Assembly (NCBI GenBank): GCA_026387035.1
Contig: JAPLMM010000227.1
Span: 1-45,907, forward strand
Length of the DNA: 45,907 nucleotides
From: Planctomycetota bacterium
GTDB taxonomy: Bacteria; Planctomycetota; Phycisphaerae; FEN-1346
Direction: 5' to 3'
Below the pieces are notes generated by a model. The model did not search any database. It saw nothing but the letters and a program-made list of their open reading frames with translations, and was not told the origin of the DNA. The position numbers were made by a program, and so were the translations under genes. This document shows, one piece after another, positions 3,184 to 17,913 of this stretch. Position 1 is the stretch's first letter. Each line of letters begins with the position of its first letter.

Positions 3184-3567
3184 TCACGGGTGCGGCGTAA
3201 TGGCAAGGATCGTGATCTCGCCCGGACCGGGACCGTAGCACCAGAACACGCGGTAAGCCCCCGGCGTTCGGTGCTGGGCATACGCCTCGAACACCTTGGC
3301 CTTCGGGTCGAAGGGGCTTTCCAGCGAGTGGTACGGGTGGGTTTGGAGTCCGGGATGGCGCGGATTGTCCGCCAGAAGGAGGATCGTCTTACGGACCTGC
3401 TTAAAAAGCCCTTCCTGCCGGGAGGATTTCCGTCTGCCGGTTCGCCCCCGCGTCCGGCCGGATCGCTTGCCCTGAGTCCCGACAAGGTCGGGATCGAAGG
3501 GGGCGACCGAAACCTGGAGTTCCTCGTACTGGCGGCGCGCGGTGGGCGTCCATCGGACCGCAGCCAT
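3184..3567 (-). CDS. RelE/ParE-type toxin (type II toxin-antitoxin)
   Basis: A 127-residue basic protein. The second half carries the features of a RelE-superfamily group common in environmental bacteria: a helix 'LFKQVRKTILLLADNP', the phrase 'RHPGLQTHPYHSL', 'KVFEAYAQHRTPGAYRV', and a C-terminal 'GEITILAITPHP'. Members of this superfamily usually cleave mRNA at the ribosome or act on other targets, and the partner antitoxin silences them. The gene begins in a TGATG overlap of one base with the upstream antitoxin, so the two are translationally coupled. A CTTCGA/CTCAGGG-type palindromic repeat (3470-3502) lies inside the reading frame and encodes about a dozen residues near position 25 (PFDPDLVGTQG). 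This may be a natural loop or may impair activity. Confidence 0.75.
   Translation of the reverse strand: MAAVRWTPTARRQYEELQVSVAPFDPDLVGTQGKRSGRTRGRTGRRKSSRQEGLFKQVRKTILLLADNPRHPGLQTHPYHSLESPFDPKAKVFEAYAQHRTPGAYRVFWCYGPGPGEITILAITPHP
3470..3502. repeat. palindromic repeat inside the toxin gene
   Basis: CCCTGAG, then a perfect 7-bp hairpin (3477-3483 with 3487-3493, loop AAG), then TCGAAGGG. It has the same ends as the intergenic CTTCGA/CTCAGGG elements, but here it reads in frame within the toxin coding sequence. Confidence 0.65.
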
Positions 3568-3830
3568 CAGCGATTGTCCTCATCGTCGCCCGACCCCGCC
3601 TCCAGGTCCGGGGCCTCGGCAAACCGGCCCGCGCGCGCCTCCTCCAGTCCCCCGCGGACCGCCTCCAGAGCCTTCGCGTTCTTGTAGAGCCACGCTTCCC
3701 GGGCGGGAATCGCCTCCGCTGGAATGATCTCCAGCGCCCCGTCCTCGTGCTCCCGCACGATCACCAGGCGGTTCGCGTATCGTGGGCCGAGCGTAATCCG
3801 CCCCCGGCCGTCAACGGTCTTCGTCGTCAT
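3567..3830 (-). CDS. AbrB/MazE-like antitoxin
   Basis: An 87-residue acidic protein. The N-terminal part (residues 1 to about 40: TTKTVDGRGRITLG...) resembles the swapped-hairpin DNA-binding fold of SpoVT/AbrB and MazE antitoxins, which are mostly beta and centred on a 'GRITLG' strand. The C-terminal half is helical and acidic, ending in a disordered DDEDN tail of the sort that wraps the toxin. It precedes and overlaps the RelE-like toxin gene by one base. The start at 3830 was chosen because GAGGAGGAAGG lies immediately upstream. A longer start would place that ribosome site inside the gene. AbrB-type antitoxins usually repress their own promoter. The family assignment is moderate; the role follows from the pairing. 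Confidence 0.7.
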   Translation of the reverse strand: MTTKTVDGRGRITLGPRYANRLVIVREHEDGALEIIPAEAIPAREAWLYKNAKALEAVRGGLEEARAGRFAEAPDLEAGSGDDEDNR

Positions 3831-4293: not shown

Positions 4294-7200
4294 ATGAAGC
4301 GTCGGCTTATCGCTATCGCCGTTCTGGTATTCTTCGTCGCGGCCCCGGCCGTGGGGAACTCCGTGCGCCCGGACCTGGTGCGCGAAATTCTTCGCCGGAA
4401 ACCCGAATGGCCGGGCGTCGAGGTCGAAATTCCCGTCGAGGTCTACGACGCGTACGTGCGGGACCTGCGCGCGGTTCCCGTCCCGCCGCAGCCCCCCGAA
4501 GTTTCCTGGATCGAGCGGGTCACGTACCGCATTTCCATCGCCGCCGACGACGCGAAACTCGAAGCGGAGTTCAACCTCGTCTTCCTGCCCGGCGAGGGGG
4601 CCAAGGCCCTGGCTCTGCTTCCGAAGGCCCTCGCGTGGAGCGAGGTGACGCTGGACGGCAAGACCGTCGAACTCCGGCAGGCCGACGACGGCTGGTTCTA
4701 CCTGGACCCGCCGGAGCCCGGCCGATACCGCGTCGTGGCGAAGGCGCCGGTGAAACCGGCGAAGAACGGCGACCGGTTCGACGCCTCGTGGCCGACGCCG
4801 GCGGCGGCGTGGACCGTCGGGGCCGTGGAGTCGGACGGCCTGTGGGAGGTGCGATTCTCGCGGTCGCCGCTGCCCGTCGTCGGGGCGGAGGCGGCCGGGA
4901 CGCACGGCACGGTGGGCCTCGTGCCGGGCGACCGGTTGGGCGTCCAGTGGCAGCGTCCTCAGCCGCCCGTCCGCCGGGCCGCCAGCATCGAATCGAAATC
5001 CCATGTCGGTTGGACGCTGGCGGACGGCGTGCACCAGGTGCGTGCGATCCTGGACCTTCGGCTGTGGGGCGGGGAGGCGGAGGAACTTTCGCTTTCGTTC
5101 CCGCTGGGGGCCGACCGCATCGAAATCCGGGGTCCCGACGTCCGCGAGGTGCAGACCCAGGGGGCCCAGGCCCGCGTGTTCCTGCGCGGGGCGATTACGC
5201 AGCGGACGCGCCTGGCGGTCTCCTTCGAGGTGCCGCGGGCGGCCACCGGGCGGATGACGCTGCCGGCGTTCGGCGTGGCGGGAGCGAGGCCGGCGGGCGG
5301 AACGCTGGCGATCGCGGGCGGCAGCGGGGCGGTGCTCCTGGAGATGGAGAGCCGGGGCCTTGAGCCGATGGCCCTTTATGACCTGCCGGCGGAGACGCGG
5401 GGTCTCCTGGCGGCGCCGCCGGTCTATGCCTACAACCTCGCGCCGGGGCCGTGGGAAGCGCAGGTCGATTTGGTGGCGATGGCGGAGTTTCCGGTCCGCG
5501 AGACGCTGATCGACTCGGCCCTTTACACGGTCCTCTACCGCCCGGACGGGCGGGTGATGACGAAGGTGATTTACGAGGTTCGGAACCGGGCGAAGCAGTA
5601 CATGCGGGTGGACCTGCCGGCGGGGGCGACGCTGGTCGTCGCCCGCGTGTCGGAGGAGCAGCGGAACCTGGCCCGCGGCCCGGGGACGAGCGTTCTCGTG
5701 CCCCTGGAAAAGAGCGTTCTGACGACGGCGGGGCTGGTGAGTTTCCCGGTGGAACTGGTGTACGTGATGGCCTCGCCGCCGCTGGACCGCAAGGGCGAGT
5801 TCCGCGCGGTGCTTCCGCGGACAGACCTTTCGATCGCCTACGCGCGGTGCGCGCTGATGCTGCCGGAGGGGATGAAGGTGAAGGAGTGGGGCGGACCGCT
5901 TCGGAAAGTGCCGTCGTGGTCGAGCGAGACGGCCGAGATGGAGTTTGAGTACGGGCGCGGGTACCTGGCGCCGCCGGAGGCGAAGGAGCCGCCCACGCCG
6001 AAAGGGCCGGGGATTTTGGAGACCATCGGCGGGCTGTTCGTGATGGCCTCGCGGGCGCCTGTGCCACAACGCGTTGCTCAACCGATGGAAGACGATGAAA
6101 CGCGGCGGCAGCGGGAACTTCAGACACAGACGCTCCAGGCGAAGAACACTTACCGTGCGGCGGTGCGGGCGTACGATGCCGGGGACAACCCGCGGGCGCA
6201 GAAACTGTTCGAGCAGGTGACGACCATCGCGCCGGAATCGACGGAGGGGTACAACGCCAAGAAGTACCTAGGGAACGTGAAGATTGCGATGGGCGAAGCG
6301 GAGGAGGGCGCGAAGGGCGACCGCGGCGCACGGGCGGCGACGAAGGCCGTCCAGCGGGCGCAGCAGATGGCGAACGTGACGATGCTCGAGCGCCAGCAGG
6401 AACTCCTGGCCCAGGGCCGGCAGGCGGCCCAGGCGGGGGACGTGAAACAGGCCGAGGCGGCGTACCAGGTGGCGACGGAGATGTCAAAGGAACTCCAGTC
6501 CCGCGGCGAGGAGGCGCGCGAGCAGCACGCCACGGTCCGCAAGGCCGAGCAGTTCCTCACGGAGTCCAAGGCGCAGCGCGGGAAGCAGGAGGCCGAGGTG
6601 GCGGGACTTCAGCAGCGGCTGGAGTCGGCGAAGAAGAACCTCACCAAGGCGGGCGGAAAAGCGGCAGCGAACATCGCCGACTTCGGTGTGGAGGGAGATG
6701 AGCGCGTGGGGGTGAGTGGAGGCTTCGCGTATTTTGGGACGCCGCCGGCGAAGGCGCCGGCCCAGGTGGAACTTGGGACGGCTATTGCGAAGCAGCAGGT
6801 GGACACGTACGGCAAGGTAGGGTCGGCCCAGGGCAAGGCGGTCTTCACTGGCCATGGCGTGGGTGGAGGCGGGGGCGGCACCGAGGGTTTGGGTCCCGCC
6901 GGAGGTGGCGGCGGGCAGGGGGAGGTCGCTCAACTTCAGGAACAGGTTCACGAACTGGAGGCGCTCCAGAAAAGATTCGGCGGCGAGAAGGCGGCCAAGC
7001 AGCCGACGTCCGAGGCGCTGGCGAAGGCGATTGACCTGGACAAAAAGGTGGAGCAGCGGACCGAGGCCCTGAAAGCGGGCGCGAAACAGGCGGCCTCGCT
7101 CGCCCGCGCGGGACGCCTGGCCGAGGCCGAGCAACTGATGGCGAACCTCCAGACGGAGGTGGAAAAAACAGCGAACGTGGCCGCCCTGATGCTGGCGGAA

Positions 7201-8766
7201 AAGAAGCCAGAGAAAGTGGCGGCGCTGGAAGGCGCGCCAGCGGCTGTGGAAGTGGCGGCGCCGGCGGCGCCGGAAGGCACGCCAGCGGTCACGGTGGACC
7301 GCTCCGGCTCGATGGTCCGGGGCGTCCGGACGGCGCGGGACCTTCAGCGGCAAGAGGTGAAGGCGAACGTGAGCGACCTTTTGGCGCTGGCGGAGCGGCG
7401 CGTCAAGGAGGGGCGGACGCTGGAAGCACGGAATACGGCCCTTCAGTCGCTGGCGAACGCGGAACGGATTGTGGAGGTCAACAAGGACCTGCTGGACGCC
7501 GATGCGGAGGGGCTGCGAAGCGGAATCAACGCCTTGCGGTCGGAGGTCGGGAAACCGAGCGGGCAACCTCCGCCGAGCCCGGCCGCGGAACCGGCCATGC
7601 CGGACCAGGAACGCGACAAGCGGGTGGAAGAACTCTGGTCGCGTGCGCGGAGCCTCGGGCGCTTGAAGAGAATGGACGAGGCGGTGGCGACGGTGGACGA
7701 GATCATCCGCCTGGAGCCGGGGAACGAAAACGCCTGGCGATGGCGGGAGGACCTGAGGGGGCTGAAGGGGCAGAAGGAGAGTCTGGCGCGCGCGCCGGAG
7801 GCCATGACCGACCCGGCGCGGCAGGGCGCGGCGGTGAGCGGCAAAGAGAAGAAACTTGAGGAACTGAACGCGGAGTTCTTCAGGGCCGTCGAGGAGATCC
7901 AGGAGCAGAAGAAGGGGCAGGAAACGGTCCAGTTCGACGTGAGCGACCTCACGGAAGGGGTCCAGGACGGTAAAAGGCTGGCGGAGTTCGTCGGGGCGAA
8001 CTACGACTGGACGCTTCGGCAGGACGTGCGGGCGGCGCCGACGGTGACCGTGATGAACGGGCAGGCGACCACCGTGGTGGCGACGGGAGGGCGTTACGGG
8101 GCGATGACGGCCGCGGGGGTTGCAAGCGCGAATGTCCGTTTCAACGACGGGAGGCTGGAGGTGCCGAACGACCCGGCCGTGGTGGGCCAGGTGCAGGCGG
8201 TGCTGGAGCGTCTGCGGGCGAATTGGGGCCAGCGGGTGGCGGTGGGGTCGCGGAACGTGTATGTGGCGGGCCATCAGGTCGGCGCTGCAGGGGTCAAGTG
8301 GGTCGAGGGTGCGAACGGGGTGCGGTACGCGGTGGTGGATGAGGGGGCCCTCTTGAACCTCATGGACCTGGAGCAGCGGGACCGCAACGGTCCGCCGGCC
8401 GGCGCGGCGAGGGACGTTTACCAGGACGCCGTGGTGGGGACGCAGGCGCTCCTGGCGAACGGCGCCGTGGTGGACCTCGCGCGGGCGGGCGACCGGGACA
8501 ACACGCTGAACTACAACGGCAACAGCATTCCGGTTGGGCACGACGATTACCTCCTGGTGAATAACGGTTCGTACGTGACGGCGGTGAAGGCGGGCGAGAT
8601 GCGTCACTGGTCGGCCGAGACGGAACCGGTGAAGTTTCCCGGGGTGCCGGCGGCGGTGGTGGTTCCGGCCGTCGGGCGCACGGTGAAGTTCGAGAAGACG
8701 TTGCTGGAACCGGAAGACGTGGTAGAATTGGTCACCCAGTACACTTGGGAAGGAGAGCCGAGATGA
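4294..8766 (+). CDS. very large secreted beta/TPR/coiled-coil protein
   Basis: 1490 residues with an N-terminal signal peptide (hydrophobic run, then AVGNS near residue 22). Layout as read: a beta-rich region to about residue 600, resembling the second gene of the operon, especially around a 'VIYEVRNRAKQYMRV' segment near residue 430; a TPR-like pair of helices (about 605-660); long charged coiled coils (680-790 and 878-980); a glycine-rich linker (about 853-877); more helices; a Pro-rich linker near 1086-1105; a TPR-like repeat (about 1110-1159); and a mixed domain from about 1214 starting 'FDVSDL' and followed by 'RLEVPNDPAVVGQV'. That last part recalls secretin N-type domains but is not a confident match. 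It overlaps the next gene by four bases (ATGA). The likely location is the periplasm or cell surface. Function unknown. Confidence 0.75.
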   Translation: MKRRLIAIAVLVFFVAAPAVGNSVRPDLVREILRRKPEWPGVEVEIPVEVYDAYVRDLRAVPVPPQPPEVSWIERVTYRISIAADDAKLEAEFNLVFLPGEGAKALALLPKALAWSEVTLDGKTVELRQADDGWFYLDPPEPGRYRVVAKAPVKPAKNGDRFDASWPTPAAAWTVGAVESDGLWEVRFSRSPLPVVGAEAAGTHGTVGLVPGDRLGVQWQRPQPPVRRAASIESKSHVGWTLADGVHQVRAILDLRLWGGEAEELSLSFPLGADRIEIRGPDVREVQTQGAQARVFLRGAITQRTRLAVSFEVPRAATGRMTLPAFGVAGARPAGGTLAIAGGSGAVLLEMESRGLEPMALYDLPAETRGLLAAPPVYAYNLAPGPWEAQVDLVAMAEFPVRETLIDSALYTVLYRPDGRVMTKVIYEVRNRAKQYMRVDLPAGATLVVARVSEEQRNLARGPGTSVLVPLEKSVLTTAGLVSFPVELVYVMASPPLDRKGEFRAVLPRTDLSIAYARCALMLPEGMKVKEWGGPLRKVPSWSSETAEMEFEYGRGYLAPPEAKEPPTPKGPGILETIGGLFVMASRAPVPQRVAQPMEDDETRRQRELQTQTLQAKNTYRAAVRAYDAGDNPRAQKLFEQVTTIAPESTEGYNAKKYLGNVKIAMGEAEEGAKGDRGARAATKAVQRAQQMANVTMLERQQELLAQGRQAAQAGDVKQAEAAYQVATEMSKELQSRGEEAREQHATVRKAEQFLTESKAQRGKQEAEVAGLQQRLESAKKNLTKAGGKAAANIADFGVEGDERVGVSGGFAYFGTPPAKAPAQVELGTAIAKQQVDTYGKVGSAQGKAVFTGHGVGGGGGGTEGLGPAGGGGGQGEVAQLQEQVHELEALQKRFGGEKAAKQPTSEALAKAIDLDKKVEQRTEALKAGAKQAASLARAGRLAEAEQLMANLQTEVEKTANVAALMLAEKKPEKVAALEGAPAAVEVAAPAAPEGTPAVTVDRSGSMVRGVRTARDLQRQEVKANVSDLLALAERRVKEGRTLEARNTALQSLANAERIVEVNKDLLDADAEGLRSGINALRSEVGKPSGQPPPSPAAEPAMPDQERDKRVEELWSRARSLGRLKRMDEAVATVDEIIRLEPGNENAWRWREDLRGLKGQKESLARAPEAMTDPARQGAAVSGKEKKLEELNAEFFRAVEEIQEQKKGQETVQFDVSDLTEGVQDGKRLAEFVGANYDWTLRQDVRAAPTVTVMNGQATTVVATGGRYGAMTAAGVASANVRFNDGRLEVPNDPAVVGQVQAVLERLRANWGQRVAVGSRNVYVAGHQVGAAGVKWVEGANGVRYAVVDEGALLNLMDLEQRDRNGPPAGAARDVYQDAVVGTQALLANGAVVDLARAGDRDNTLNYNGNSIPVGHDDYLLVNNGSYVTAVKAGEMRHWSAETEPVKFPGVPAAVVVPAVGRTVKFEKTLLEPEDVVELVTQYTWEGEPR

Positions 8767-10811
8767 GGACGCGAACGTGGGTGCTGTGGTTGGGTGTGGC
8801 GGTGCTCCTGGCGGCAGGGCCGGCCCTGGCGGCAGGTCCGGCGGCGATCGCGCAGGAGAAGAAACCCGAAGAGGTTCCCCTGGATGAGGAAGGGCGGGTG
8901 ATCCTCTCGTGGGAGACGTTCAAGGACGTGACGAAGTGGGACGAGCAGCGACCGCCGGCGGAGGAGCCCGGCGTCTTCACCCTCTCGTGGGAGGACGTGC
9001 GCGACCTCCTGGGGATCGAGATGAAGGACGTCAAGATGGACAAGACGAAACTGCGGATCCCGTGGCAGGAGTTCAAGGCCCTTCTGGAATGGAGCATCAC
9101 GAAGAAGAAGGAGCCGGCGGCAGCACCGCCGCCCACGGATTGGACGATCACGGCGGCGGTGTACGAGGGCCAACTGACGAAGGACGGGGCGATCTTCGAC
9201 GCGACGTTCCACATCCGGATCCTGAAGGAAAAGGAGTGGAAGACGGTGCCGCTGTTGCCGGCGTCGGTGGCGGTCGAGGAAGCGACGCTTCCGGAGGGGG
9301 CGTACCTGAGGCTCGCGGGCGGGTTCTACGAGTTGATCACGGCCGGCACGGGCGCCCAGGAAGTGAAGGTGAAGTTCTCCACGGCCGTGACGGAATCGGC
9401 CGGCTCTAACACGGCGGGGTTCGCGCGCGTGCCTTCGGGCACCTCGATCGTGAACCTGGTGGTGCCGCAGGCGGCCGTGACCGTGACGGTGGCGAACGCG
9501 CAATCGCTCGTGAAGACCGAGGGCGAGAAGGAAACGCGCGTGACGGCCGCGCTGCCGTCCGGCGCGCCGTTGCAAATCGCCTGGGAGCGGGCGATCCCCG
9601 AGGCCGAAAAGGTGCCGCCGAAACTCTATGCCGAGACGAAAACCCTCGTGGCGGTGGGCGACGGCATCCTCATTTGCCGCCAGCGCGTGGACTACAACAT
9701 CCTCCACACGGGCGTGCGGGTGCTGAAACTGAAGGTGCCGGCCGGCGCGAGCATCCTGGAGGTGACGGGCAACCGCGTCCGCGACTGGCGTGTGGCGGAC
9801 GGGAATCTGTCGGTCTCGTTGACGTATGAGGCGATCGGGGCGTACAGCCTCCAGGTGGTGTATGAGAAGGCGACGGGCGAAGTGCAGGCGGGCGGGGTTT
9901 CGTTGCCGGTGCTTCACGCCTCCGACGTCGAACGCGAGAAGGGCAACATCGGCGTGGTGGCGCTGGCGAACGTGGAACTGTCGAGCCCGGCATTGAAGGG
10001 TGCGACGGCGATTGATGTCCGCGAACTGCCGCCCGAACTCCTCGGCATGACCGGCCAGCCGGTCCTCCTCGCCTACCGCTACGTGGCGGAGGACTTTAAC
10101 ATCCCGCTCGCCATCAAAAAGCACGAGGACGTGACGGTGCTGGTGACGATCGTGGACTCCGGCGTCATCACGACGATGCAGACGCTGGACGGGCGGCGGA
10201 TCACCAAGGCGATTTACAACGTGCGGAACAACCGGAATCAGTTCCTGCGTCTGACGCTGCCGGCCGGCGCGGAGATGTGGTCGGCGAGCGTGAGCGGCCG
10301 GTCGGTCCGCCCCGCGAAGGACGAGCAGGGGCGCATCCTTCTGCCGCTCGTGCGGTCGGAGGGGGCGTCGAGCGGTCTGGCGGCGTTCCCCGTGGAGGTG
10401 GTGTACGTGGAGAAGGGCGAAGTGCCGCCGGCCTCCGGGACGCTCGAGATCAAGTTGCCTCGCGCGAGCGAACCCATCACGCAACTGATGGTTAACCTGT
10501 ACCTGCCGAAGGAAGCCAAGTATACGAAGGGGTGGTCGGACGAGCCGGCCATCGAGAGCCCGCTGACGGTCGTCAAGGCGTACCGGCAGTTGGTGGGCGT
10601 GGTCGGCGCGCCGGGCATCCAGGCGGAACAGGCGGCGATGGCGATTCAGCAGGCGGCCCAGGCGAGGGCGGATGCGGAGACGGCCGGCGCCGGCGCGACG
10701 CCCATCCGCGTGAACCTCCCGATCGACGGGGAGTTGTTCCGGCTCGAGAAGATCCTCGTGCTGGACGAGGACCTGTTCATCCGGGTCAACTACAGCGGGT
10801 GGAAGAGGTAG
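8763..10811 (+). CDS. large secreted beta-rich protein, partner of the upstream gene
   Basis: 682 residues with a signal peptide (residues 1 to about 24, ending ALA). Near the N-terminus three short motifs recur, each built around S/P-W-E/Q with a following hydrophobic and charged pattern, at W50, W76 and W101. The rest is mostly beta strand. Residues from about 455 ('KAIYNVRNNRNQFLRLTLPA', then 'FPVEVVYVEKGE') match the 'KVIYEVRNRAKQYMRVDLPA' / 'FPVELVYVMASP' segment of the upstream protein, so the two are paralogous over that module. The start at 8763 was chosen because it gives the signal peptide, has AGGAGA upstream, and overlaps the preceding stop codon by four bases. Function unknown; the pair probably forms one envelope complex. 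Confidence 0.75.
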   Translation: MRTRTWVLWLGVAVLLAAGPALAAGPAAIAQEKKPEEVPLDEEGRVILSWETFKDVTKWDEQRPPAEEPGVFTLSWEDVRDLLGIEMKDVKMDKTKLRIPWQEFKALLEWSITKKKEPAAAPPPTDWTITAAVYEGQLTKDGAIFDATFHIRILKEKEWKTVPLLPASVAVEEATLPEGAYLRLAGGFYELITAGTGAQEVKVKFSTAVTESAGSNTAGFARVPSGTSIVNLVVPQAAVTVTVANAQSLVKTEGEKETRVTAALPSGAPLQIAWERAIPEAEKVPPKLYAETKTLVAVGDGILICRQRVDYNILHTGVRVLKLKVPAGASILEVTGNRVRDWRVADGNLSVSLTYEAIGAYSLQVVYEKATGEVQAGGVSLPVLHASDVEREKGNIGVVALANVELSSPALKGATAIDVRELPPELLGMTGQPVLLAYRYVAEDFNIPLAIKKHEDVTVLVTIVDSGVITTMQTLDGRRITKAIYNVRNNRNQFLRLTLPAGAEMWSASVSGRSVRPAKDEQGRILLPLVRSEGASSGLAAFPVEVVYVEKGEVPPASGTLEIKLPRASEPITQLMVNLYLPKEAKYTKGWSDEPAIESPLTVVKAYRQLVGVVGAPGIQAEQAAMAIQQAAQARADAETAGAGATPIRVNLPIDGELFRLEKILVLDEDLFIRVNYSGWKR

Positions 10812-10893: not shown

Positions 10894-11025
10894 GTTTTCA
10901 GTTGTCGAACTTCGGCTGGTTCGAAGCCGACTTCGTCGTGAACCGGCGACCGGTAGGAGATGTTTGTGCAACAGGCTCGCTTCCTGAATTGTTGCCCAGG
11001 GGGGCTTGGGAGAAAGGAATCACGC

Positions 11026-12423
11026 ATGAGGCCTGTCAGACTGCTCGGACTGCTCGGATTGCTGTGCCTGGGGTTGGTCGTGGGTCCAGCCGAGACTCTC
11101 GGCCAGGAGGCGAAACCGTTCGTCCATTCCTTGTTCGGCGACCACATGGTCCTCCAGCGCGACATGAAGGCGCCCATCTGGGGCTGGGCCAAGCCGGATG
11201 AGAAGGTGACCGTCGAGATGGCGGGGAAGAGCGGCACGGCCGCCGCCGACAAGGACGGCCGATGGGAGGTCCGGCTGGGTCCCTTCAAGGCGGGCGGTCC
11301 GCACACGCTGAAGATTTCCGGGCCCCAGGCGGTGACGATTCAGGACGTCCTCGTGGGCGACGTGTGGCTTTGCTCGGGCCAGTCGAACATGGCGTGGGGC
11401 ATGAAGGGTAGCGACACGGGCGACGACATTGCGAAGGCCGATTTTCCGAAGATTCGGCAAACGGGTCCCGGTGGGAATTGGGCTGTCTGCACCCCGGAGT
11501 CGGCGGCCGGGTTCAAAGCCGTCGGTTTCTACTTTGCGCGGGCGGTTCAGCGGGAGACCGGCGTTCCGATCGGCCTAGTCAACAATGCCGTGGGCGGATC
11601 GCGCATCGAGCCGTGGGTCGACCCTGCCAGTGTGGCTTCTTCGGTGCCCGAAGTTCGGCCCGCGCTCGAAGGGGGCAAAAGCGGCCTGTTCAACGCCAAG
11701 ACGCTGCCGCTCGTCCCGTATGCTTTACGCGGCATGCTGTGGTACCAGGGCGAAAGCAACGGCAACGAGGGCACAAGTTACCTCCAAAAGTTGCGGGTCC
11801 TCATCGGCGGCTGGCGGAAGTTGTGGGGCCAGGGCGATTTTCCCGCGTATGTCGTGCAACTTCCCAATTTTCAGCAGGCCAACGACAATCCGGCCGGCGG
11901 CGACGGGTGGGCCAAGATCCGCGAGGCCCAGTTGAAGGCCCTCGCGATTCCCAACACCGGCGTCATCATCACGATCGACGTCGGCGAGCCGGGAAACATC
12001 CATCCGAAGAACAAGTTCGACGTGGGCGAACGCCTTGCGCGGTGGGCGGTGGCCAAAGACTACGGCAAGAAGGACCTCGTTTACAGCGGGCCGCTCTACA
12101 AGGGCATGAAGGTCGAGGGCAACAAGGTCCGCATCTCGTTCGACCACGTCGGCAGCGGCCTGATGGTCGGCAAGAAGGAAGGCCGGCGACCGGCCGAGGA
12201 GGTCAAGGGCGGCCAACTGAAGCGCTTCGCCGTCGCCGGGGCCGACAAAAAATGGGTCTGGGCCGACGCCGTCATCGAGAAGAACACGGTCGTCGTCTCC
12301 AGCCCCGACGTGCCGAATCCCGTGGCGGTGCGGTATGCCTTCTCCGGCAACCCCGAAGGCTGCAACCTTTACAACAAGGAAGGGCTGCCCGCCTCGCCGT
12401 TCCGGACGGATGATTGGGAATGA
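11026..12423 (+). CDS. sialate O-acetylesterase (SGNH-type)
   Basis: A 465-residue secreted esterase that removes acetyl groups from sialic acids or other acetylated sugars. The signal peptide is at residues 1-28 (two LLGL steps, ending near TLGQ). A beta-sandwich domain follows ('HMVLQRDMKAPIWGWA'), then the SGNH hydrolase domain with Ser120 in 'CSGQSNM', an oxyanion-type 'NAVGGS', and the catalytic His326 in 'NIHP'. The start at 11026 was chosen for AAAGGA upstream and a proper signal peptide; an upstream in-frame ATG at 10960 would give an unlikely Cys-rich leader. The stop overlaps the sulfatase start by four bases (ATGA), so both act in one transcript. De-acetylation and de-sulfation of one glycan would be a sensible pairing. 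Confidence 0.9.
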   Translation: MRPVRLLGLLGLLCLGLVVGPAETLGQEAKPFVHSLFGDHMVLQRDMKAPIWGWAKPDEKVTVEMAGKSGTAAADKDGRWEVRLGPFKAGGPHTLKISGPQAVTIQDVLVGDVWLCSGQSNMAWGMKGSDTGDDIAKADFPKIRQTGPGGNWAVCTPESAAGFKAVGFYFARAVQRETGVPIGLVNNAVGGSRIEPWVDPASVASSVPEVRPALEGGKSGLFNAKTLPLVPYALRGMLWYQGESNGNEGTSYLQKLRVLIGGWRKLWGQGDFPAYVVQLPNFQQANDNPAGGDGWAKIREAQLKALAIPNTGVIITIDVGEPGNIHPKNKFDVGERLARWAVAKDYGKKDLVYSGPLYKGMKVEGNKVRISFDHVGSGLMVGKKEGRRPAEEVKGGQLKRFAVAGADKKWVWADAVIEKNTVVVSSPDVPNPVAVRYAFSGNPEGCNLYNKEGLPASPFRTDDWE

Positions 12424-14635: not shown

Positions 14636-14655
14636 ATGAGCAGACGATGGCTGGG
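14583..14655 (+). repeat. duplicated leader plus start codon, copy A
   Basis: A 73-base segment covering the upstream region, ribosome site and first seven codons of the first DUF4038-type gene. It matches 17925-17997 at about 65 of 73 positions by eye. Confidence 0.75.
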
Positions 14656-16267
14656 GGCATGGGTGGTTGTTTCGCTGGCCCTTGCGGCCCGCGCTAACGC
14701 GGGACAGCGCGTCGAGACGAATCGCGTTGCCGAAATCGCCTTGGTCTCCGAGAAAACATATGCGAACCCGTTCACGGAGATCCGACTCGACGCTATCGTT
14801 ACTCAGCCGGATGGCAACCCATTGCGGGTGCCGGCGTTCTGGGCCGGCGGCAATCGGTGGTGTTTCCGTTACGCATCGAGCCAGCCGGGCCAGGCCGTGT
14901 GGCGGACCGAATGCTCTGATGCGGCGAACCCGAAACTCCATGGCGTCGAAGGGAAGGTCGACGTGGTCGCCTACGCAGGCGACAATCCCTTGTACCGCCA
15001 TGGCCCGATTCACGTGGCCAAGGGCCAACGGCACTTTGAACATGCCGACGGCACGCCGTTCTTCTGGCTGGGCGATACGTGGTGGAAGGGGCTGTGCAAA
15101 CGGCTCACGTGGGAAGGGTTCCAGGAACTCGCGGCCGACCGCAAGGCCAAGGGATTCAGTGTCGTGCAGATCGTCTGCGGACCCTATCCCGATGAAGGGA
15201 TGTTTGAGCCGCGATGGGAAAACGAAGGCGGAAAGCCGTACGAGACCAGGGATTTCACGGTGGTCAATCCCGCGTATTTCGAGTATGCGGACCGCCGCAT
15301 CGAGCACCTGGTGGAGGCAGGCATCGTCCCGGCCATCGTCGGTGCTTGGGGGCGAAGCGACTGTAACAGTATGCAGGCGGTCGGAGCCACCGGCCTCATG
15401 CGGCATTGGCGGAATCTGGTTGCGCGGTATGGCGCCTTTCCCGTGGTCTGGATTCTGGCGGGTGAAATCGGCACCGGTACCAAGTGGGGCCAGGGACCGT
15501 GGGCCGAAGTGGCAGAATATCTGCGCAGCGTGGATCCCTACAAGCGCCCGCTCACCTGCCATACCTCGGCGGGTCGCCGCGGCGCTCCGGGGGATGAACT
15601 ACTGATTGATTACGACATGGTTGGGGGTAGCCATGCCGCTCCGACAACCCGGCAGACCCTCTCGGTCTTCACCGAAGCGTATGGCAAGGCGCCGCCCATG
15701 CCGGTTCTCTGCGGCGAAACCGGTTACGAAGGCCACATGCAGTTCCATTTCCAGGATGTTCAGCGCCACGTGTTCTGGATGTACATGCTCAGTGGCGCGG
15801 CGGGCCATACGTACGGCGCGGCGGGCGTCTGGCACGCGAGCGTCGAAGGCGATCCGGGCATCACGCCCGTCTACGACCGGACGACCTGGCGGGAGGGGAT
15901 GAACTACCCCGGCTCGACGCAGCTCGGGCTGGGCAAGCGGCTGCTCGAACAATATCCCTGGTGGCGATTCGAACCGCATCCTGAGTGGGTGGAAGACGGC
16001 TACTTTGCGGCAGGTATTCCGGGCGAGGTGCGTTTCATCTACCTGCCCCGGCGCAACGTTTACGATTGGAGCGGCCCGACGGTCAAGAACCTGGAGCCCG
16101 ACGTCAACTGGCATGCCTATTACTTCGATCCCGCGACCGGCCGGCGATTCGATCAGGGCACGATCCAAGGGAAGACTGGGAACAAGACGGCAGAGCCGGT
16201 GGATTTCAAGAGGAACGTGCCATCGCCCCAGGACTGGGTGTTGGTGCTGGAACGAGTGACATCGTAA
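14636..16267 (+). CDS. DUF4038/apiosidase-like secreted glycoside hydrolase, copy 1
   Basis: A 543-residue secreted protein. A signal peptide (1 to about 22) is followed by a DUF5060-like beta domain ('SEKTYANPFTEI', 'VPAFWAGG'), then a DUF4038-type TIM barrel starting at 'HADGTPFFWLGDTWW', with 'VVQIVCGPYPDEGMFEPRW' and carboxylates in 'VVWILAGEIG' and 'VLCGETGYEGH' that are candidates for the catalytic pair. A collagenase-type C-terminal beta domain ends the protein ('VRFIYLPRRNVYDW'). The family degrades plant or algal side chains such as apiose; the substrate here is unknown. The ribosome site is GGGAGA. The neighbour at 16300 is a clear paralog with the same domain order, so a tandem duplication made the pair. 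Confidence 0.85.
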   Translation: MSRRWLGAWVVVSLALAARANAGQRVETNRVAEIALVSEKTYANPFTEIRLDAIVTQPDGNPLRVPAFWAGGNRWCFRYASSQPGQAVWRTECSDAANPKLHGVEGKVDVVAYAGDNPLYRHGPIHVAKGQRHFEHADGTPFFWLGDTWWKGLCKRLTWEGFQELAADRKAKGFSVVQIVCGPYPDEGMFEPRWENEGGKPYETRDFTVVNPAYFEYADRRIEHLVEAGIVPAIVGAWGRSDCNSMQAVGATGLMRHWRNLVARYGAFPVVWILAGEIGTGTKWGQGPWAEVAEYLRSVDPYKRPLTCHTSAGRRGAPGDELLIDYDMVGGSHAAPTTRQTLSVFTEAYGKAPPMPVLCGETGYEGHMQFHFQDVQRHVFWMYMLSGAAGHTYGAAGVWHASVEGDPGITPVYDRTTWREGMNYPGSTQLGLGKRLLEQYPWWRFEPHPEWVEDGYFAAGIPGEVRFIYLPRRNVYDWSGPTVKNLEPDVNWHAYYFDPATGRRFDQGTIQGKTGNKTAEPVDFKRNVPSPQDWVLVLERVTS

Positions 16268-16299
16268 GAGAAGGACACGCTTTTTAGGAGAGGCAACCG

Positions 16300-17913
16300 A
16301 TGAGAAACATGGTGCATCTGGCATTGGCGTTGTGTGCGTTAGCCCAGGGGGCGGCGCGCGCAGCCGAGGTGGGGCAATGGGAGGTGTTTGAAGCGTCCTA
16401 CGAATCCAAGAAGACCTACGCGAACCCCTTTAATGACGTCGAGGTGGAGGTCGTCTTTCGCAGCGGGGTGAAGCAGTGGACCGTGCCTGCGTTCTGGGTG
16501 GGTGGCAGCAAATGGACCGTTCGCTTCGCGCCACCCGTGCAGGGGGAGTATGCGTTCCGCGTTCAGTGCACGGACCCGTCGAACCCCGACCTGAACGGGC
16601 ACGAGAAGGCCCTTCGCGTCGCGGCCTACGCGGGCAACAACCCCCTGCTGAAGCATGGCTTTCTCCGCGTCAGCGCGGACAAGCGGCACTTGGAACATGC
16701 CGACGGCACGCCGTTCTTCTGGCTGGGCGATACGTGGTGGAAGAACTTGTGCAAACGAATGACGTGGGAAGGCTTCCAGGAACTGACGGCCGACCGCAAA
16801 GCCAAGGGCTTTTCCGTGGTGCAGATCGTCTGCGGGCCGTATCCCGATGAAGGCATGTTTGAGCCACGATGGGAGAACGAAGGCGGAAAGCCGTACGAGA
16901 CCAGGGATTTCAGCGTTGTTAATCCCAAGTACTTCGATTACGCGGACCGTCGTATCAAACATCTGGTCGATGCCGGGATCGTCCCGGCAATCGTCGGTGG
17001 ATGGGGGCGAGGCGACTGTGACGGCATGAGAATGGCAGGCGTGGACGGCATCAAGCGGCATTGGCGGAATCTGATCGCGCATTATGGCGCCTATCCGACG
17101 GTATGGATCATTGGCGGCGAATCGGGCGGGCCGCAGTGGACCGAGGTGGCACGGTACGTTCAGAAAATCGACCCCTATTGCCATCCGGCGACGGTCCATC
17201 CGTTCCATTCGGGCCGGCTGTCCGTGACCGACGAAACGGTCATCGATTTCGACATGCTCCAGACGGGGCACGGCGATTGGGACGCGGCGCGCGGCGCGAT
17301 ACCGAAACTCCAGGCCGCCTACGCCCGCGAACCGGTCATGCCCGCCATGATCGGCGAGTACTGCTACGAAGGCCACATGCAGACGGCATTCCAGGACGTT
17401 CAGCGTTACGTGTTCTGGGGGACCATGCTCAGCGGTTCGGCGGGTCTTACCTATGGTGCGGCGGGCGTCTGGCACGCCAGCGTCGAAGGCGATCCGGGCA
17501 TCGCGAGGGTTTACGACTTCACGACCTGGAAAGAAGGCATGAACTTTCCCGGCTCCGCGCAACTCGGGCTGGGCAAGAAGTTGCTCGAACAGTATCCCTG
17601 GTGGAAATTCGAGCCGCACCCGGAGTGGGTGGAAGCGGGCTGTTTTGCCGCCGGCATACCGGGCGAAGTGCGCTTCATCTACCTGCCGCGACGCAACGTG
17701 TACAACTGGACCGGCCCGACGGTCAAGAATCTTGAGCCTGACGTCGATTGGCACGTCTACTACTTTGATCCGGCGACAGGCCGGAAATTCGATCAGGGCA
17801 CAATCAAAGCCCGGGTGAAAGCGGGCGACACGCCGGCGGACCCCGTTGATTTTAAGAAGAACGTTCCTTCGCCTCAGGATTGGGTGCTGGTGCTGGAGCG
17901 GGTGAAACCGTAA
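16300..17913 (+). CDS. DUF4038/apiosidase-like secreted glycoside hydrolase, copy 2
   Basis: A 537-residue paralog of the preceding gene, with long stretches of near-identical protein and DNA in the barrel ('HADGTPFFWLGDTWWKNLCK', 'PYPDEGMFEPRW'). The signal peptide ends near residue 22. Carboxylate candidates lie in 'VWIIGGESGG' and 'MIGEYCYEGH'. The most visible differences are the loop around residues 250-330 and the 'GEIGTGTKWGQ' segment, which is shorter here. This may alter specificity. AGGAGAGG lies upstream. The gap from copy 1 is only 32 bases, so the genes are probably cotranscribed. Confidence 0.85.
   Translation: MRNMVHLALALCALAQGAARAAEVGQWEVFEASYESKKTYANPFNDVEVEVVFRSGVKQWTVPAFWVGGSKWTVRFAPPVQGEYAFRVQCTDPSNPDLNGHEKALRVAAYAGNNPLLKHGFLRVSADKRHLEHADGTPFFWLGDTWWKNLCKRMTWEGFQELTADRKAKGFSVVQIVCGPYPDEGMFEPRWENEGGKPYETRDFSVVNPKYFDYADRRIKHLVDAGIVPAIVGGWGRGDCDGMRMAGVDGIKRHWRNLIAHYGAYPTVWIIGGESGGPQWTEVARYVQKIDPYCHPATVHPFHSGRLSVTDETVIDFDMLQTGHGDWDAARGAIPKLQAAYAREPVMPAMIGEYCYEGHMQTAFQDVQRYVFWGTMLSGSAGLTYGAAGVWHASVEGDPGIARVYDFTTWKEGMNFPGSAQLGLGKKLLEQYPWWKFEPHPEWVEAGCFAAGIPGEVRFIYLPRRNVYNWTGPTVKNLEPDVDWHVYYFDPATGRKFDQGTIKARVKAGDTPADPVDFKKNVPSPQDWVLVLERVKP

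Follow-up and report, generated by a model that had tools for sequence, protein, structure and literature searches.

A 45,907-nucleotide contig of a planctomycete of the class Phycisphaerae (JAPLMM010000227.1, assembly GCA_026387035.1, a 2.5-Mb metagenome-assembled genome (MAG) in 317 contigs), here called the window, encodes a pair of large proteins with predicted export signals, here named P1 and P2. The initial annotation had described them as proteins of 1490 and 682 residues whose genes overlap by four bases; both open reading frames are present, and the overlap is an ATGA at which P1 stops and P2 starts. P2 has 682 residues when read from this ATG, and 688 when read from an earlier TTG that appears in a program-made list of open reading frames. 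P1 is laid out as a beta module, a TPR/coiled-coil segment, linkers rich in glycine and proline, a secretin-related region that is TPR-like and then N1-like, and a conserved C-terminal domain. The features of the two genes are the following.

4294-8766, + strand: P1 open reading frame, ATG start, 1490 residues, predicted exported protein.
4294-4365, + strand: signal-peptide-like segment of P1, residues 1-24 (hydrophobicity and sequence).
4414-5937, + strand: multi-sandwich beta module of P1, the counterpart of that in P2, about residues 41-548 (blastp, profile comparison and tree).
6121-6633, + strand: TPR/coiled-coil segment of P1, about residues 610-780 (alignment conservation).
6814-7023, + strand: Gly-rich variable linker of P1, about residues 841-910 (low conservation in the P1 alignment).
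6997-7773, + strand: TPR region of P1, homologous to that of a secretin, residues 902-1160 (phmmer).
7924-8259, + strand: putative secretin N1-like region of P1, about residues 1211-1322 (model and relatives).
8191-8763, + strand: C-terminal domain of P1, residues 1300-1490 (alignment and model).
8656-8763, + strand: C-terminal motif of P1, VP..G....FEK.LL, in common with the P2 C-terminus.
8763-8766, + strand: ATGA, overlap of P1 stop and P2 start by exactly four bases, recurring in orthologs.
8763-10811, + strand: P2 open reading frame, ATG at 8763, 682 residues, predicted exported protein.
8763-8837, + strand: signal-peptide-like segment of P2, residues 1-25 (hydrophobicity).
8892-9107, + strand: N-terminal strand-helix repeats of P2, LSWExF / LSWEDV / IPWQEFKALL, residues 44-115; a related motif occurs in giant paralogs.
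9114-10574, + strand: multi-sandwich beta module of P2, residues 118-604 (model and profile comparison).
10701-10808, + strand: C-terminal motif of P2, LP..G...RLEKIL, residues 647-682.

Each protein has one hydrophobic segment at the N-terminus (residues 3-24 in P1, 6-25 in P2) and no further one on the Kyte-Doolittle scale, by which alone export was judged. Within P1, the segment at about 610-780 is conserved across the aligned planctomycete and lentisphaerote set, and conservation among planctomycete P1 is highest in the last 190 residues. The Gly-rich linker that had been announced is indeed there, with 20 glycines in the 70 residues from about 841 to 910. Cysteines are very few, and no member belongs to an enzyme family. 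Neither protein matches a Pfam or NCBIfam family above cut-off, and sequence searches of solved structures (PDB) with P2 profiles returned nothing significant. As the initial annotation had suspected, searches of these family libraries and of open-licence papers turned up no described system of such an anatomy, which is not a claim of a demonstrated new function.

The pair is conserved as a unit. The initial annotation had proposed that the two genes would keep the same order in other planctomycetes, and this holds there and also in Lentisphaerota and Myxococcota; their separation in relatives, named at the outset as the observation that would speak against a single system, was not seen. P2 orthologs are present in 11 of the 61 relative genomes examined, i.e., the window's own genome, four of the five others of its family, both others of its order, and four elsewhere in the class. 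A scan of the genome collection with the single P2 sequence found no relatives, and an alignment-based scan found 54 loci, of which 48 (L044-L091) carry P2 orthologs in Planctomycetota, Lentisphaerota, Myxococcota or bins labelled 'Deltaproteobacteria', the remainder holding more distant or fragmentary relatives. When the window and these 48 loci were restricted to those with at least 1 kb upstream of P2 (n=41), a P1 homolog was found directly upstream, on the same strand, in 41 of 41 (in L053 through the open reading frame of the P1 C-terminus). In 24 of the 41, P2 can start at -4, with an overlap of ATGA or GTGA, and most others offer a start within about 50 bases; the gap is 285 bases in L057, and the frames overlap in L047. 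A comparison of 10-kb flanks revealed no third conserved neighbour gene, and we therefore take the operon to consist of two genes. The distribution is patchy: only 7 of the 392 genomes of an even phylum sample pass 1e-60, and some of these are not confirmed as pairs. The pair is present in Plesiocystis pacifica SIR-1 and Enhygromyxa salina SWB007, both of them named strains. Myxobacterial-type pairs also occur in contigs labelled Klebsiella pneumoniae and Bifidobacterium breve (L077 and L073, respectively), labels that look wrong and seem to be those of mislabelled MAG records. The P1 of Plesiocystis has a weak match to the NCBIfam family CglF (gliding; 29 bits, with the cut-off at 90), which was not used. 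Behind this match is a short stretch, FEDD.V.G.L, which we observed in P1 of the Nannocystaceae type (near residue 825 in L074, at 901 in L079 and at 741 in L084), i.e., in 3 of the 12 myxobacterial P1, with one looser match.

The two proteins are also related to each other. The VRNR and FPVE segment that had been noticed in both (VRNRAKQYMR and FPVELVYV in P1, VRNNRNQFLR and FPVEVVYV in P2) is real and belongs to a homologous module of about 500 residues, with 26% identity over 475 residues in blastp (E 5e-28) and a profile-profile probability of 100% over 504 columns (E 6.5e-58). Part of this segment is invariant in 40 P2 orthologs (V487-R491, Q493, F494 and L495), W506 and S507 also count among the invariant residues of P2, and the extreme C-termini of P1 and P2 end in a common motif, [VIL]P..G....[FL]EK.LL. 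We placed 49 modules in a joint tree (24 from P1, 24 from P2 and one from a lone P2-like protein). The P1 modules form one clade with a support of 100 in the Shimodaira-Hasegawa-like approximate likelihood ratio test (SH-aLRT), and the P2 modules form another with 80, or 100 when the lone outlier is included. Since each of these separate clades is divided into a planctomycete/lentisphaerote half and a myxobacterial half, the tree dates the duplication before the split of these groups, or before the transfer that spread the pair. The divergences of P1 and P2 between pairs of genomes are tightly correlated (r 0.97 for the whole set, and 0.97 and 0.95 when each half is taken alone), and P2 is the slower-evolving partner, with a mean identity of 42% against 28% for P1. 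Repeats among the sandwiches of P2 itself are weak, with pairwise E-values of 8.6e-4 and 1.8e-3 and probabilities of 24% and 15% in hhalign, because of which we do not claim a tandem duplication inside the module.

The C-terminal half of P1 leads to a secretin. The TPR-like repeats reported at first sight are weak in Pfam (TPR_2 E 0.003, below cut-off), with weak TPR matches for the 610-780 segment in the orthologs L066, L060 and L045, but in residues 902-1160 phmmer detects homology (6.7e-18) to residues 303-576, the TPR part of the secretin encoded in the same genome. This true secretin lies on another contig (G000:C220, L043:8872-12438) and carries the barrel (PF00263 5.9e-25), of which the P1 of the window has no match; P1 has instead a P2-like beta module and a C-terminal domain of its own. 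The early hint of a secretin was thus right in kind, and these alignments show that the C-terminal half of P1 has common ancestry with the TPR-secretin of its genome, without the barrel. Beyond the TPR part, the N1-like region of P1 is predicted to have a beta-alpha-beta-alpha-beta topology with a disordered insert, and a P1 of the same family (L045) contains 245 residues that match the N0-N1 block of the window genome's secretin at 2.5e-90. In that gene (L045:4038-9887, G004:C11) the block is far closer to the secretin than is the rest of P1, which suggests recent recombination with a secretin gene. The barrel signature VPDGGTL[ML]LGG is kept in two other P1 (VPDGGTLMLGG in L052 and VPDGGTLLLGG in L061).

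Such kinship opens the possibility that the two proteins assist the secretin of a secretion system or pilus: P1 would co-assemble into the ring or cap it, and P2 would act as a chaperone, pilotin or cargo receptor. The TPR ancestry and the N0-N1 block of the sister P1 speak for it. We nevertheless find it improbable, for three reasons. First, the pair is encoded apart from the secretin gene (contig C227 versus C220). Second, proteins with N0-N1 domains and no barrel also exist elsewhere (L037), so that borrowing a domain may not mean sharing a machine. Third, myxobacterial P1 are unmatched by the N-domain profile. The case of L037 is an observation in its own right: two adjacent proteins of 278 and 262 residues (L037:2540-4164) lie upstream of a lone P2-like gene, at a distance of a few kb, and the second reads from its sequence as secretin-type N0/N1 domains without the barrel.

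A model of P2 made from 40 sequences (predicted local distance difference test 83, predicted template modelling score (pTM) 0.46) consists, after the N-terminal strand-helix repeats, of all-beta tandem domains. Its top eight fold matches in PDB by Foldseek are all chains of human and yeast OST1/ribophorin I (E 5e-9 to 1e-7, about 420-430 columns), and the match covers, at the level of domains, nearly the whole luminal part of yeast Ost1, which is built of tandem beta sandwiches. A second tier includes N-domains of M1 aminopeptidases and the inter-alpha-inhibitor heavy chain 1 (E 5e-5 to 3e-4). These also match in fold, but over no more than about 200-250 columns, and P2 lacks the peptidase domain of M1 aminopeptidases and any peptidase match in Pfam. 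The eight matches raise the idea of a bacterial oligosaccharyltransferase-type subunit, a homolog of ribophorin I. This idea is largely refuted and retains hardly any credibility: PF04597 has no match in the window's own genome at E<=10, hhalign of the P2 profile against human and yeast OST1 gives a probability under 1% (with the human letters taken from the PDB chain), and STT3, the partner of OST1, was not found in the window's genome, its family or its order. OST1 further differs from P2 by its transmembrane segment and cytosolic helical bundle, and the hydrophobicity profile of P2 has no membrane or ribosome-binding region. A published survey confines OST1 to eukaryotes and to TACK and Asgard archaea (PMC11417166). 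We reject a role of P2 in glycosylation because it has no sequence homology to OST1 and no STT3 to work with, and we conclude that the modelled likeness is one of fold, not of family membership.

P2-like modules are not restricted to the pair. Within the class, five loci (L035, L036, L040, L041 and L042) encode giant paralogs of 2328-2571 residues with a partner of about 1120-1260 residues; none occurs in the window's genome. These resemble P2 in their modules and in an N-terminal strand-helix motif (IYIPYEKLR..FLPYEKFQELW), and differ from the P1-P2 pair in the reversed order of sizes and in the several copies of the module; they coexist with P1-P2 or replace it. One might then see in P1 and P2 a structural or adhesive layer of the cell surface, a coat or wall lattice of repeated beta sandwiches, given their all-beta modules, the very large linkers, the multiplication of the module in paralogs of 2200-2570 residues, and a VWA insertion in one P1 (L063). 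The pair, however, bears no surface anchor and no sortase-type or other sorting signal that we could recognise, and its presence in so few of the relatives implies that it is not a general wall component, which makes this reading less probable still than that of a secretin accessory.

Other relatives are found with regulators. In another planctomycete family (L038 and L039), a gene for an extracytoplasmic function (ECF) sigma factor is followed by a VWA/YfbK_C gene with a membrane segment and then by a P2-like giant. The P2-like protein, of 2.2 kilo-residues, thus shares one cluster with both (L038:5922-16756, L039:6465-18759), and the cluster is possibly an envelope-sensing cassette. The VWA/YfbK_C protein of L038 also shows a zf-HC2 anti-sigma domain, at a score that falls short of the Pfam cut-off, and the profile of the C-terminal half of P1 matches its counterpart in L039 at 8e-11, through a common TPR-N1 region. 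In distant Deltaproteobacteria (L095 and L097), a looser version exists: an ECF sigma gene comes first, then a large protein that has an N-terminal Cys motif and looks anti-sigma/VWA-like by eye, without Pfam support, and third a P2-like protein with C-terminal hydrophobic segments. The P2-like protein is the last gene in all these cassettes. They are the basis of the main rival to a scaffold, in which the pair would be the structural arm of an envelope-sensing circuit and would sense the state of the envelope or pass it on, by way of an anti-sigma/VWA partner, to an ECF sigma factor, with the regulator lost or located elsewhere in the window's lineage. The VWA insertion of L063 also fits it. 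In the window, however, no sigma, anti-sigma or VWA gene adjoins the pair, P1 has no VWA/YfbK_C domain and fills the position of the partner, and the flank comparison found none of these genes as a conserved neighbour of true P1-P2 pairs. Moreover, neither protein has a transmembrane segment able to signal inward. We thus regard ECF-controlled sensing as unlikely, if more plausible than the other rivals. VWA force-transducer cassettes with TPR and TolQ/TolR-like genes were described in 2025 in the Planctomycetes-Verrucomicrobia-Chlamydiae (PVC) group (PMC12204202); the P1-P2 pair differs from them in having no such conserved neighbours.

The reading that we favour, if tentatively and at a little short of an even chance, is that P1 and P2 together make up one non-enzymatic scaffold or complex of the envelope as its two subunits, with P2 as the core, P1 as the adaptor, and the paralogous modules binding each other. 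The export signals and the domain content make an envelope system the probable setting. The process would involve 1) export of both proteins by Sec, to become soluble outside the inner membrane; 2) assembly of P1 with P2 through the paralogous multi-sandwich modules, which would be the reason why both modules and the tight translational coupling were retained since before the divergence of Planctomycetota/Lentisphaerota and Myxococcota; 3) a division of labour between P2, the invariant core, and P1, the adaptor; 4) in planctomycetes, multimerisation of the complex on a ring, or docking to it, e.g., that of the TPR-secretin, by means of the TPR/coiled-coil segment and the barrel-less secretin-type half of P1; and 5) linkers rich in glycine and proline that would span the distance. 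The complex would then serve as a scaffold or escort rather than in catalysis. A bolder version is possible but doubtful: an envelope machine new to the literature, formed by an obligate heteromer of two anciently duplicated proteins of ribophorin fold, one of them carrying half of a secretin, the periplasmic one, as a fusion, and making a barrel-less ring or scaffold common to Planctomycetota, Lentisphaerota and Myxococcota, with an OST1-like fold in the periplasm and no partner in glycosylation.

Several results weigh against the scaffold. The secretin-N-like region announced by the initial annotation stands by its predicted topology and by its relatives, but in the window's P1 the direct score is just above that of shuffled sequences (24.4 versus 23.5). 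The search of PDB with the fold of the P1 C-terminal domain gave only matches at the level of chance. Myxobacterial P1 are shorter and are unmatched by the profile of the planctomycete C-terminal half, and docking to a secretin therefore cannot be the universal function. The template modelling scores of the Foldseek matches of P2 are low (0.17-0.28, root-mean-square deviation about 21 A), because the relative orientations of the domains differ or are uncertain; together with the pTM of the model, this makes the arrangement of the P2 domains uncertain and restricts the match to the level of domains. Finally, correlated divergence of P1 and P2 is also expected from common ancestry alone.

The rest of the window offers a few side observations. 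A protein of 260 residues (168-950, - strand) ends in a PEP-CTERM motif (Pfam PF07589, 1.6e-6), which suggests that this genome has a sorting system of the exosortase type. Two overlapping open reading frames of 87 and 127 residues (3184-3830, - strand) look by eye like an antitoxin and a toxin, with no Pfam match for either. Downstream of the pair, a SASA-type esterase (10960-12423) precedes two tandem apiosidase-like glycoside hydrolases (14636-17913, + strand; PF13204 with DUF5060).

Two genes that stay in the same order in different phyla, and in most cases remain translationally coupled, very likely encode one molecular machine, here one without a name in the family libraries searched. 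It is a case in which a periplasmic secretin module was reused without the pore, and in which an OST1-like fold, as judged from a model and at the level of domains, occurs in Bacteria. The pair is a concrete target for work on the envelope of planctomycetes and myxobacteria, many of whose large exported proteins lack an assigned role, and its presence in Plesiocystis pacifica and Enhygromyxa salina makes it open to study in named strains.

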